Assembly (NCBI GenBank): GCA_013141455.1
Contig: JABFQW010000036.1
Location: 1 to 64,000, forward strand
Reading direction: 5' to 3'
From: Bacteroidales bacterium
Lineage (GTDB): Bacteria; Bacteroidota; Bacteroidia; Bacteroidales; F082
Length of the DNA stretch: 64,000 bases
Shown here: positions 5,534-53,041 of the stretch, piece by piece
Layout: each line of letters opens with the position of its first letter
How positions within the stretch are numbered: the first letter of the stretch is position 1
Notes under the pieces: model-generated
Seen by the model: only the letters and a program-made list of their open reading frames with translations
The model's database searches: none
What the model was told of the DNA's origin: nothing
Position numbers and translations under genes: made by a program

Positions 5534-6238
5534 TTACTCCTTCACTTCCAATTTGAAACCAATACCATGAATGTTTGAGATGGCAACATTAGGGTCATCT
5601 TTTAGATATTTCCTGAGCCGTGTGATAAAAACATCCATGCTCCTGCCGATAAAATAATCGTTGTTGCCCCAAACTGTTTTTAAAGCGTGATCGCGTGTTA
5701 AGAGTTTGTTTTTGTTTAAACACAGCAATTTCAATAAGTTCGACTCTTTTTGGGTTAAAGTCTGTATGCCGAAATCAGATTTCAGAATCATATTTGGAGC
5801 ATCGAAAACAAATTTACCAATATCAAAAACCTCATTCATTTGTTCGGGATCGTCAAGAATATTTCTTGAGCATCTTCGCAGTATCGCTTTGATACGAAGG
5901 TTTAGTTCTTCCGTGCTGAAAGGCTTGGTAATATAGTCGTCGCATCCCTGGTGAAATCCTTTGAGCCGGTCCTCATTCAGCGATTTTGCCGTTAAAAAGA
6001 TGATTGGTATCTGATTATTCTTTTTGCGAATAAGTGCCGCAAGCGAAAATCCGTCCATCCTGGGCATCATCACATCAAGGATGCACAAATCAGGCGTTTC
6101 TGACTGAAAAATTGCATAACCTTGTTCACCATCATGAGCCACAGAAATCTTGTAATGCATTAGTTCGAGAAAATCCTGAAGCAACATGCAAAGATTTGGG
6201 TCGTCTTCAACGAGCAATATGCGGGCGTTATTCTCCAT
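5534..6238 (-). CDS. OmpR/PhoB-family response regulator (RprY-like)
   Basis: Receiver domain LLVEDDPNLCMLLQDFL, LDVMMPRMDGF, winged-helix Trans_reg_C C-terminus. Confidence 0.9.
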   Translation of the reverse strand: MENNARILLVEDDPNLCMLLQDFLELMHYKISVAHDGEQGYAIFQSETPDLCILDVMMPRMDGFSLAALIRKKNNQIPIIFLTAKSLNEDRLKGFHQGCDDYITKPFSTEELNLRIKAILRRCSRNILDDPEQMNEVFDIGKFVFDAPNMILKSDFGIQTLTQKESNLLKLLCLNKNKLLTRDHALKTVWGNNDYFIGRSMDVFITRLRKYLKDDPNVAISNIHGIGFKLEVKE

Positions 6239-6240
6239 AA

Positions 6241-7527
6241 CTAATCGTTAGACAGGGAATTATAAGGTAAAAAAACTTCGAATCTGGAACCATGTCCAAG
6301 CTGACTTGTGAGCGTTATTGAACCATGATGCATTTCAACAATTTGTTTAACATAATAAAGTCCAAGGCCAAAACCCTTTACATCATGCACATCTCCTGTG
6401 TGGACACGATACAGATTTTTGAAGACAAGATGTTGATTATCAGATGAAATACCGATCCCATTGTCACTAATTACAATTGTAACGCCTTTTTTATCGGAAT
6501 GGGTTGATAATTCGATCTGTGGATCGTCCTTTGAATATTTCAATGCATTATCGATCAGGTTTGCCAAAACATTGGTCAGGTGCATACGATCACCGGCGAT
6601 AAGTGCATTTTCGGCCTTAAAACTTGTCGTGATTTTTGCCGATTTTTCAATTGCCTTTATCTCGAAATTTTCGACCGTTATTGATATAAGTTTATGAATG
6701 TCAACTTCTTTCAATTGCATTTTCGCCTCACCTTTATCGAGAATAGCGATCTGCAACACCTGCTCAACCTGATTTTGAAGACGGAAATTTTCGTTGTAAA
6801 TAACCGAAGCATACTTCATCGTTTTCAAAGCGGATTGATTAACTTCGGGTTTCATGAGCATCTCCGAGGCCAGCGAAATGGTTGCAATCGGTGTTTTGAG
6901 CTCATGTGTCATATTGTTAATGAAGTCTGTTTTCATCTCCGAAAGCTTTTTCTGGCGGATGATCGTTACAATCGTAAACCAGAAACTAAAGATTACAATA
7001 AGTAAAAATACGGCTGAGAGCAGCATCCATTTTACCATCTGTCCAAAGAGCAGACTTTGCTGTTTTGGAAAATACATGGTAAAATAGTAATCGCCTGGTT
7101 TGAATAACGCCTGGATTGTTTGCTGATGCTCCGATTCGAGAAGTTGCTGTTTGTATTTGTCAAAATTACCCATCACGAATTTATCATTGCGACGGTTATA
7201 GATGGCATATTCATAGCCCTTGGATATCTGCATACATCCAAGTTCGGCTTCTATCAATGAGTCTAATACTTTGGGTTTTACAACATCCAGAATATTGCTT
7301 TTATCCATATAGCAAGGCGAAGCCATACATAATCTCCGAAGGGTAGAATCGTTGTTAGACTCTATTAAGCGGTTCAGCACTGTTTTCATCGCGATACGCA
7401 CACTGTGATTGAAATGACTTTCTTTCAGTTCAATAGCATTACGAACCCAGTAAACTTGTGTAAACACTACGCCAAGAAGTGAAATAAATGTGATGATAAT
7501 GAGTAAAGTAAATAGTTTTGGCTTCAT
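6241..7527 (-). CDS. Sensor histidine kinase (RprX-like), partner of the adjacent response regulator
   Basis: H-box NNMTHELKTPIATI, N-box NLIDNALKYS, G-boxes ISDNGIGIS and GFGLGLYYV; start MKPKLF at 7527 favoured because a -7 box lies at 7548-7555. Confidence 0.9.
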   Translation of the reverse strand: MKPKLFTLLIIITFISLLGVVFTQVYWVRNAIELKESHFNHSVRIAMKTVLNRLIESNNDSTLRRLCMASPCYMDKSNILDVVKPKVLDSLIEAELGCMQISKGYEYAIYNRRNDKFVMGNFDKYKQQLLESEHQQTIQALFKPGDYYFTMYFPKQQSLLFGQMVKWMLLSAVFLLIVIFSFWFTIVTIIRQKKLSEMKTDFINNMTHELKTPIATISLASEMLMKPEVNQSALKTMKYASVIYNENFRLQNQVEQVLQIAILDKGEAKMQLKEVDIHKLISITVENFEIKAIEKSAKITTSFKAENALIAGDRMHLTNVLANLIDNALKYSKDDPQIELSTHSDKKGVTIVISDNGIGISSDNQHLVFKNLYRVHTGDVHDVKGFGLGLYYVKQIVEMHHGSITLTSQLGHGSRFEVFLPYNSLSND

Positions 7528-7547
7528 CAACTTGCTGTATTTCAAAG

Positions 7548-7555
7548 CAAAAGTA
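7548..7555 (-). promoter_or_regulatory. Putative -7 box TACTTTTG for the histidine kinase/response regulator operon
   Basis: CAAAAGTA on + strand. Confidence 0.5.
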
Positions 7556-7566
7556 AACGATCTGCC

Positions 7567-7619
7567 TTAACTTAACCGGCTATTAACATTTCGTTAACAG
7601 TATTTAACAGGCCATTAAC
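7567..7619. promoter_or_regulatory. Array of TTAAC direct repeats with 10-11 bp phasing between divergent genes
   Basis: TTAAC starts at 7567, 7572, 7583, 7594, 7604 and 7615. Confidence 0.65.
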
Positions 7620-7641
7620 AACGACAGTAATATTTAGTGGA

Positions 7642-7649
7642 TACATTTG
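7642..7649 (+). promoter_or_regulatory. Putative -7 box TACATTTG for the Cys/Lys-rich peptide gene
   Basis: TAnnTTTG 27 bp upstream of ATG 7676. Confidence 0.6.
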
Positions 7650-7675: not shown

Positions 7676-7909
7676 ATGAAAAAATTAGCTTTAAGTCTGT
7701 CAATGATTGTTTTTCTTGCCTTAGGTAGCACCGCATTTGCTCAGGATGTTAAACCGGAAGCAAAAAAAGCAGAAACAAAAAAAGAATGTACTGCACCTGA
7801 GAAAAAAAGCTGCTGCGCTGATAAAAAAGCCTGCGCTGATTCAAAAAGCTGCACAAAAGAAGAAAAAAAATCATGCACTACTGAAACCAAAACTCCGGAT
7901 AAGAAATAA
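7676..7909 (+). CDS. Small secreted Lys/Cys-rich protein, function unknown
   Basis: Signal peptide MKKLALSLSMIVFLALGSTAFA followed by a K/E/C-rich tail with several C residues; followed by a terminator. Confidence 0.75.
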   Translation: MKKLALSLSMIVFLALGSTAFAQDVKPEAKKAETKKECTAPEKKSCCADKKACADSKSCTKEEKKSCTTETKTPDKK

Positions 7910-7936
7910 TTATTTGGTTGTGTTTAATACAATGAG

Positions 7937-7970
7937 AAGCCTTTCGAACAATTCGGAAGGCTTTTTCGTT
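7937..7970 (+). terminator. Rho-independent terminator
   Basis: AAGCCTTTCGAA-CAA-TTCGGAAGGCTTTTT. Confidence 0.75.
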
Positions 7971-7988: not shown

Positions 7989-7996
7989 TACTTTTG
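7989..7996 (+). promoter_or_regulatory. Putative -7 box TACTTTTG for the OsmC-family gene
   Basis: TAnnTTTG 15 bp before ATG 8012. Confidence 0.5.
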
Positions 7997-8011
7997 CACA
8001 AAATAAATAAT

Positions 8012-8419
8012 ATGGCAACATCAGAAACAATATATGTGGGCGGTCTGAGAACCGAAATGACCCATGTTCAATCGGGTAATACGGTAATAACCGATGCACC
8101 GGTTGACAACCAGGGCAAAGGAGAAAAATTTTCACCAACCGATCTTGTAGCTTCAGCCTTAGGAAGCTGTATGCTCACTATCATGGGAATCGCCGCCAAC
8201 GAGCACAAATTCAGCATCGACGGGGCAAAAGCATCTATCACGAAGATCATGGCCTCCGATCCAAGGCGGATAGCCGAAATAATCGTTGATTTAAGTTTTC
8301 CGGGTGTTTATACCGATAAACAAAAGAGGATTATTAAAGTAATCTCTGAAACCTGCCCGGTAGCATTAAGTTTGCATCCTGATCTGAAACAAACAATTTC
8401 GATAAAGTTCGGAGAGTAA
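8012..8419 (+). CDS. OsmC family protein
   Basis: KFSPTDLVASALGSCMLTIMGIAA and CPVALSLHPDLK motifs; start moved to ATG 8012. Confidence 0.85.
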   Translation: MATSETIYVGGLRTEMTHVQSGNTVITDAPVDNQGKGEKFSPTDLVASALGSCMLTIMGIAANEHKFSIDGAKASITKIMASDPRRIAEIIVDLSFPGVYTDKQKRIIKVISETCPVALSLHPDLKQTISIKFGE

Positions 8420-8421
8420 AC

Positions 8422-8805
8422 ATGATTTCGATTCAGATACAAAAGGGTGTGAAGGGGACACAGGAACTCACTGTGACAGAGAATGATACTGCCTTAAAAT
8501 ATGGTTCGGGTCTGGTTGCCGTTTTTGCAACGCCAGCCATGATCGCCCTGATGGAAACCACAGCGCTTAAAAGTATTGCATCCTATTTGCCTGAGAATGC
8601 AACAAGTGTTGGTACCGAAGTGAATATGAAGCATTTACGGGCTTCGGCTGTTGGTCATACCTTGCGGTGCGAAAGCGTAATCACTGAAGTGAAAGGTAAT
8701 AAGATCACTTTTGAACTTACAGTTTGGGATGATTCAATATTGGTGGGACATGGCATGCATGTTCGGCATATTATTGATACGGAAAAATTTTTGACACAAT
8801 TATAA
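8422..8805 (+). CDS. Thioesterase family protein (hot-dog fold, FlK-like)
   Basis: GSGLVAVFATPAMIALMETTALKSI, VGTEVNMKHLRASAVG, HVRHIIDTEKF. Confidence 0.75.
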   Translation: MISIQIQKGVKGTQELTVTENDTALKYGSGLVAVFATPAMIALMETTALKSIASYLPENATSVGTEVNMKHLRASAVGHTLRCESVITEVKGNKITFELTVWDDSILVGHGMHVRHIIDTEKFLTQL

Positions 8806-52702: not shown

Positions 52703-53041
52703 ACCTGATCTGGTGAATATTTGTTTCATGCAAATTTAGAAGAAATATCTGTTAGAAATGTATTATTCGATATTTATCAAATTAGCCGTTTTTATCAATT
52801 GGTATTTATTTTTTACTTCTTCTGAACCCTTAATTAAGAAAATGATTAAACGTCAAATGATTAATGAAAAATTAATATACTGTTAAATTGCTATAAATCA
52901 ATCGTGTATGCGCTTATATGTTTTTTAACATATTTTAGCATTGCTATATTCTTCGTCTTAAATTCGCCTAAGGTTACCAAAAACTTATTATTCATTGATT
53001 GTTAATCAGAAAATCAATCGTTACAACTAAATCTACAAAGT

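Follow-up and report, generated by a model that had tools for sequence, protein, structure and literature searches.

The stretch analysed here (the window) comprises 64,000 nucleotides of contig C14 from a 4.39-Mb Bacteroidales assembly and carries, on its minus strand, an operon of a sensor histidine kinase and a response regulator that faces a divergently transcribed gene for a small secreted peptide (Table 1). The intergenic region between them holds a series of TTAAC direct repeats, and this setting, an array lying between a two-component operon and a gene for a secreted Cys/Lys-rich peptide, was borne out as described in an earlier note made from the sequence alone. The regulator had been placed by that note in the OmpR/PhoB family, and both of its domains scored above the cut-offs (PF00072, 107 bits; PF00486, 59 bits). 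Scores with more specific models were below their thresholds, at 285 bits against the 370 required for the RprY equivalog (NF051850), and at 181 against 270 (NF053854) and 155 against 296 (TIGR02154) for PhoB. Judged from its sequence, the adjacent regulator is RprY-like and not PhoB.

The kinase is PhoR/PnpS-like, with scores under the cut-offs of those families. Its start is probably the ATG at 7527 rather than the TTG at 7545, because the latter lies just 3 nt past the -7 box of the operon. Numbered from this ATG, two extracytoplasmic cysteines, Cys72 and Cys98, are conserved in 34/42 and 28/42 sequences, respectively. Comparison of an AlphaFold model of the sensor (pLDDT 88) with the PDB gave no significant match; the top match, the zinc sensor CzcS, had a non-significant E value of 0.41 and was not used as evidence.

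The peptide itself had no match to any Pfam or NCBIfam family. A signal-like N-terminus was present in all peptides found at related loci, and the CC pair in 29 of 31. The hairpin 3' of the gene resembles an intrinsic terminator; shuffled sequences yield 2.3 such sites per region by chance, and its weight rests on its location. Further downstream, the OsmC-family and FlK-like thioesterase genes (7994-8805) hint at a link to redox or detoxification.

Table 1. Features of the window and of comparison loci; coordinates preceded by a locus handle refer to that locus.
Feature	Position	Strand	Remarks
Response regulator, receiver and winged helix, RprY-like	5534..6238	-	RprY 285 bits, PhoB model 181
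Sensor histidine kinase	6241..7527	-	Short extracytoplasmic domain between two membrane helices
-7 box TACTTTTG, kinase/regulator operon	7548..7555	-	27 nt from core
Two extra abutting TTAAC words (7567, 7572)	7567..7576	+	Lineage-specific, not in orthologs
Core operator (putative), TTAAC at 7583, 7594, 7604, 7615; spacing 11-10-11	7583..7619	+	Basis: conservation; consensus TTAACATWTCR-TTAACAGTWW-TTAACAGnnnn-TTAACA
-7 box TACATTTG, peptide promoter	7642..7649	+	27 nt past start of last unit
77-aa secreted peptide	7676..7909	+	Sec-type signal sequence; rich in Lys, Asp and Glu; six Cys, two of them in a CC pair
Intrinsic terminator-like hairpin, 3' of peptide gene	7934..7966	+	
OsmC-family protein	7994..8419	+	ATG 8012 likely; downstream position conserved among closer relatives
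FlK/hotdog-fold thioesterase	8422..8805	+	Likewise conserved downstream among closer relatives
Probable Pho boxes (TTAA[CT], 11-bp spacing)	L031:7131-9012 and L032:7021-7440		Upstream of pstS, around porin gene, upstream of PlcP-Agt-like phosphoesterase-glycosyltransferase pair
Candidate small RNA divergent from rprXY	L044:8136-8274 (contig C109)		Orthologs L099-L107, L109-L112, L114
Class B loci	L144, L145, L147, L149-L152, L156, L157, L165		

Geometry and conservation of the TTAAC array

All six TTAAC words reported earlier are present, exact to the base, with starts at 7567, 7572, 7583, 7594, 7604 and 7615. The longest exact chain at 10/11-bp spacing in the window is made up of five of them (7572-7615); in 150 simulated 64-kb sequences with the dinucleotide make-up of the window, no chain exceeded two units. 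A weaker three-unit TTAAC/T array with 11-bp spacing is found on the minus strand at 52860-52886. A scan of the 4.39-Mb genome for TTAAC repeats, as suggested in the earlier note, returned three perfect units at 11-bp spacing at a single position, and the perfect four-unit 11-10-11 array likewise occurs once.

Conservation was assessed with the kinase protein, not DNA, as the query, and the 30 top-ranking loci, among them that of the window, reach down to 43% kinase identity. The note had made its reading depend on conservation of the repeats next to orthologous regulators, and a perfect array was indeed found between kinase and peptide in 29 of these 30 loci. The TTAAC columns of the footprint are invariant by construction, and we cite only this count and the other columns, in which the base after each unit, not selected for, was A in 110/116 cases and the linkers had a mean information content of 0.96 bits, against 0.33 and 0.17 in the flanks. 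The array is kept beside orthologous systems to about 40% kinase identity and in at least 12 GTDB families, with the 11-10-11 phasing fixed. Words 7567 and 7572, by comparison, are missing from orthologous loci, including those of the same genus; the conserved element is the four units at 7583-7619 only, not all six words. Its direct repeats with 10-11 bp periodicity on one helical face have the form of a tandem operator of the OmpR/PhoB family. An origin of the array by chance, through the low complexity of AT-rich DNA or from some unrelated kind of repeat could appeal to the abundance of TTAAC in a genome so rich in AT (145 copies on the two strands of the window), but it is contradicted by the simulations, by reversed-pattern controls and by 20 fixed positions conserved across families; it was ruled out on the conservation data, and its probability seems to us negligible.

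Both divergent -7 boxes of the earlier note, TACTTTTG on the minus and TACATTTG on the plus strand, were recovered, and TTTG is missing about 19 nt upstream of each, as it had stated. Of the features of a sigma-ABfr promoter, the -7 boxes are present and conserved and the -33 TTTG is absent from both promoters, as would fit an activator-dependent promoter. The further claim that TTAAC units occupy the -33 regions needs one refinement: the word at 7572, 11 bp upstream of the core, covers the -33 position on the kinase side, but it is not conserved and is not a core unit. On the peptide side the last unit, counted from the -7 box, spans -27 to -23 and touches the start of the would-be -33 element (19-nt spacer). 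The distance from the start of the last unit to the peptide -7 box (TAnnTTTG) is 27 nt in 27 of 31 loci, 28 nt in three and 26 nt in one, and the gap between core and -7 box on the kinase side is 26-28 nt in nearly all loci with a recognisable box.

Co-occurrence with the kinase was followed in 37 genomes of the family, searched for arrays with at most one mismatch; these genomes are related and do not represent 37 independent trials. All 28 genomes with a full-length kinase had a perfect array, one in each, and no perfect array turned up in the nine without the kinase. Several of these nine retain RprX-type kinases and PhoB-like regulators, and every one among them to which the PhoB model was applied gave matches, mostly under its cut-off. 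In an order-wide scan of 393 genomes with a sequence-only pattern of array plus -7 box, 55 genomes matched (reversed control, 0), and 28 of the 30 pattern loci that were fetched adjoin a kinase related to that of the window. These 28 comprise 18 class A loci, which have the window's module, and 10 class B loci; at least 12 GTDB families are represented by class A plus L118. In class B, a paralogous kinase lies beside an 11-10-11 array of TTAACYTTTCC type, which mostly faces a larger secreted or periplasmic protein, often with a DT-rich N-terminal segment. A phylum-wide scan with the bare array matched six of 396 genomes, and those matches inspected, other than the window's own, adjoin unrelated genes; outside the order Bacteroidales the bare array is uninformative. 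Within the window's own genome, scans with three mismatches and with half arrays gave the rprXY region as the sole plausible extra site, a one-target statement that covers strong sites only, two-unit sites escaping such scans.

One genome (G015) separates the components naturally. Its kinase/regulator operon adjoins the tmRNA and has no array there; the one perfect array of this genome lies on a different contig, 27 nt from a peptide -7 box, with the OsmC and thioesterase genes following the peptide as in the window. Because array and peptide are kept together here with the kinase operon elsewhere, the array belongs to the peptide promoter. It follows from this arrangement that the regulator can act in trans and that autoregulation is dispensable.

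Candidate regulators of the array

The genome encodes five further winged-helix proteins. Four of them are PhoB-like (C20), CusR-like (C89), KdpE-like (C122) and RprY-like (C109, nearer to RprY than the adjacent regulator), and the fifth, encoded within the pst operon, is a PhoB-like domain that lacks a receiver. The best PhoB candidate of the genome is the C20 protein, scoring 213 and 210 bits with NF053854 and TIGR02154, which is below cut-off. Were the array a Pho box bound by this PhoB, the kinase operon and the peptide would belong to the phosphate-starvation regulon. TTAA[CT] arrays precede pstS and the PlcP-Agt-like pair and lie around a porin gene in the same genome, and one stands upstream of a PiT-type transporter in another genome (G003); the PhoP boxes of Bacillus subtilis are TTAACA-type repeats. 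Common to the array and to the boxes of PhoB and B. subtilis PhoP are the word itself, its direct repetition at intervals of about one helical turn and a regulator of OmpR/PhoB type. However, the Pho-type sites at phosphate genes are spaced 11-11-11 where at least three units are clear, in contrast to 11-10-11, and about 15-16 nt, not 27, separate the start of their last unit from the -7 box. The array is absent from genomes that have PhoB-like regulators and lack an ortholog of the kinase, it adjoins the kinase in 28 of 30 pattern matches, and the adjacent regulator is not a PhoB. A Pho box was thus rejected on spacing, -7 offset and co-occurrence, and we consider it distinctly improbable. 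PhoB nevertheless apparently uses the same TTAAC word in this genome, and its cross-binding to the array is possible. Between pstS-like and pstC-like genes lies a gene (L031:5978-6283, contig C5) for a PhoB-type winged-helix protein, 101 aa long and without a receiver, with an ortholog near L180; this protein could compete for, or constitutively occupy, the Pho boxes.

Binding by the RprY paralog (C109) in place of the adjacent regulator would agree with the TTAAC array at the promoter of its own pair, from which a divergent -7 box is again 27 nt away, and with a recognition region that resembles that of the adjacent regulator; by its score (320 bits) the paralog is also below the RprY cut-off of 370. 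Its arrays, however, are mostly 10-10-10 in relatives, with different linkers, and genomes that have RprX-type kinases but lack the window's kinase have no 11-10-11 array, so that we regard this assignment as highly improbable. It could also be envisaged that the adjacent regulator, once bound to the array, acts as a repressor at the peptide promoter, at that of the kinase or at both; P. gingivalis RprY has been grouped with repressing OmpR/PhoB regulators (introduction of PMC6032018). The array, however, lies upstream of the -7 box and not over it, at a constant 27 nt, and the promoter has no -33 element, which fits activation; repression thus appears unlikely.

The proposed circuit and its relation to known systems

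Our preferred reading, which we hold with good confidence for the full circuit, is that 7583-7619 is the operator of the adjacent RprY-like regulator (5534-6238), which would activate the peptide gene via TACATTTG. Sequence, conservation, geometry, co-occurrence and the separation in G015 were observed; binding, activation rather than repression, the dimer arrangement, the signal and the function of the peptide are points that we infer. OmpR/PhoB-type regulators bind direct repeats head to tail, and the phosphorylated regulator is predicted to bind here as two such dimers, one on units 1-2 and the other on units 3-4. With a period of 21 bp, or two helical turns, the 11-10-11 spacing would suit two dimers in exact helical register, all four winged helices lying on the same face. 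Directly next to the last unit is the place of the missing -33 element, and the bound regulator may replace that element and thereby promote transcription of the peptide from TACATTTG; this is the simplest reading. The claim of the earlier note that the regulator drives the peptide is well supported by the fixed 27 ± 1 nt offset, the phasing and the co-occurrence with the kinase. The same complex would also stand upstream of the kinase/regulator promoter, and autoregulation, likewise proposed in the note, is probable. It is less certain, however, because the units point toward the peptide and the kinase operon of G015 has no array.

The peptide would be the probable main dedicated output, acting in the envelope within the pathway sensed by the kinase, and could perhaps bind a metal or thiol, or feed back on the kinase. 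As a hypothesis, the two conserved Cys of the kinase and the CC pair of the peptide suggest a metal or thiol signal.

The closest known relative is RprXY, of which RprY binds its own promoter in P. gingivalis (PMC5706477) and rprXY is reported to be essential in B. fragilis (PMC4072883). RprY is the best family model of the regulator, both systems are kinase-regulator pairs, and rprXY of this genome also has a TTAAC array; on the other hand, the regulator is under the RprY cut-off, the same genome has a closer rprXY pair with another array spacing, and the window's module faces a peptide gene where rprXY faces a putative small RNA. PhoP of Riemerella anatipestifer, a two-component regulator of the same phylum, has a DAP-seq motif with the core TTTAACA; ahead of its own operon it binds a region of 35 nt, and it gave 583 peaks (PMC9603813), in contrast to one perfect array per genome here. 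The gene order recalls CpxRA-CpxP, in which a two-component operon is divergent from a small secreted protein and regulator sites lie in the shared intergenic region (PMC3158067), the shared operator being predicted from sequence in our case. CpxRA, however, has a broad regulon, and the peptide is unlike CpxP/Spy in being short and Cys/Lys-rich and in lacking a Pfam or NCBIfam match, so that homology to CpxP is not indicated. In the literature searched, mostly without subscription papers, we found no description of the array, the module or the peptide family and no definition of operator sites for Bacteroidales RprY-like regulators. The type of operator is already known; the module, its strict geometry, its near one-site distribution and its uncharacterised secreted product set this case apart.

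The array supplies an operator grammar for Bacteroidales RprY-like regulators and links a sensor with a secreted Cys-rich protein, neither of which is characterised. As rprXY is reportedly essential in B. fragilis, direct tests of this regulator family would become feasible with a readable site and a reporter of a single output. The PhoB-type and RprY-like sites, which use one word in different phasing, offer a natural test of insulation between paralogous regulators. It is a tentative idea, and one that we think may well not hold, that the Bacteroidales contain paralogous RprXY-type systems, each wired by an array at 27 nt to essentially one divergent product and insulated from PhoB by spacing. 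With the same reserve, the products might be a secreted Cys-rich peptide, a larger periplasmic protein (class B) and a noncoding RNA (rprXY). If true, these would be nearly one-target circuits, in which a single product closes a feedback or buffering loop.

The candidate for such an RNA is a conserved stretch of 118-138 nt, found in 15 genomes behind the rprXY array, where no ORF is present. An Rfam search gave no match and RNAalifold found no consensus structure; individually, four of five examples folded better than their shuffles (z -3.3 to -5.3) and one did not. The stretch includes TTTCATAA as an invariant block, a second block resembling GGTTTTTGGT and an intrinsic terminator.
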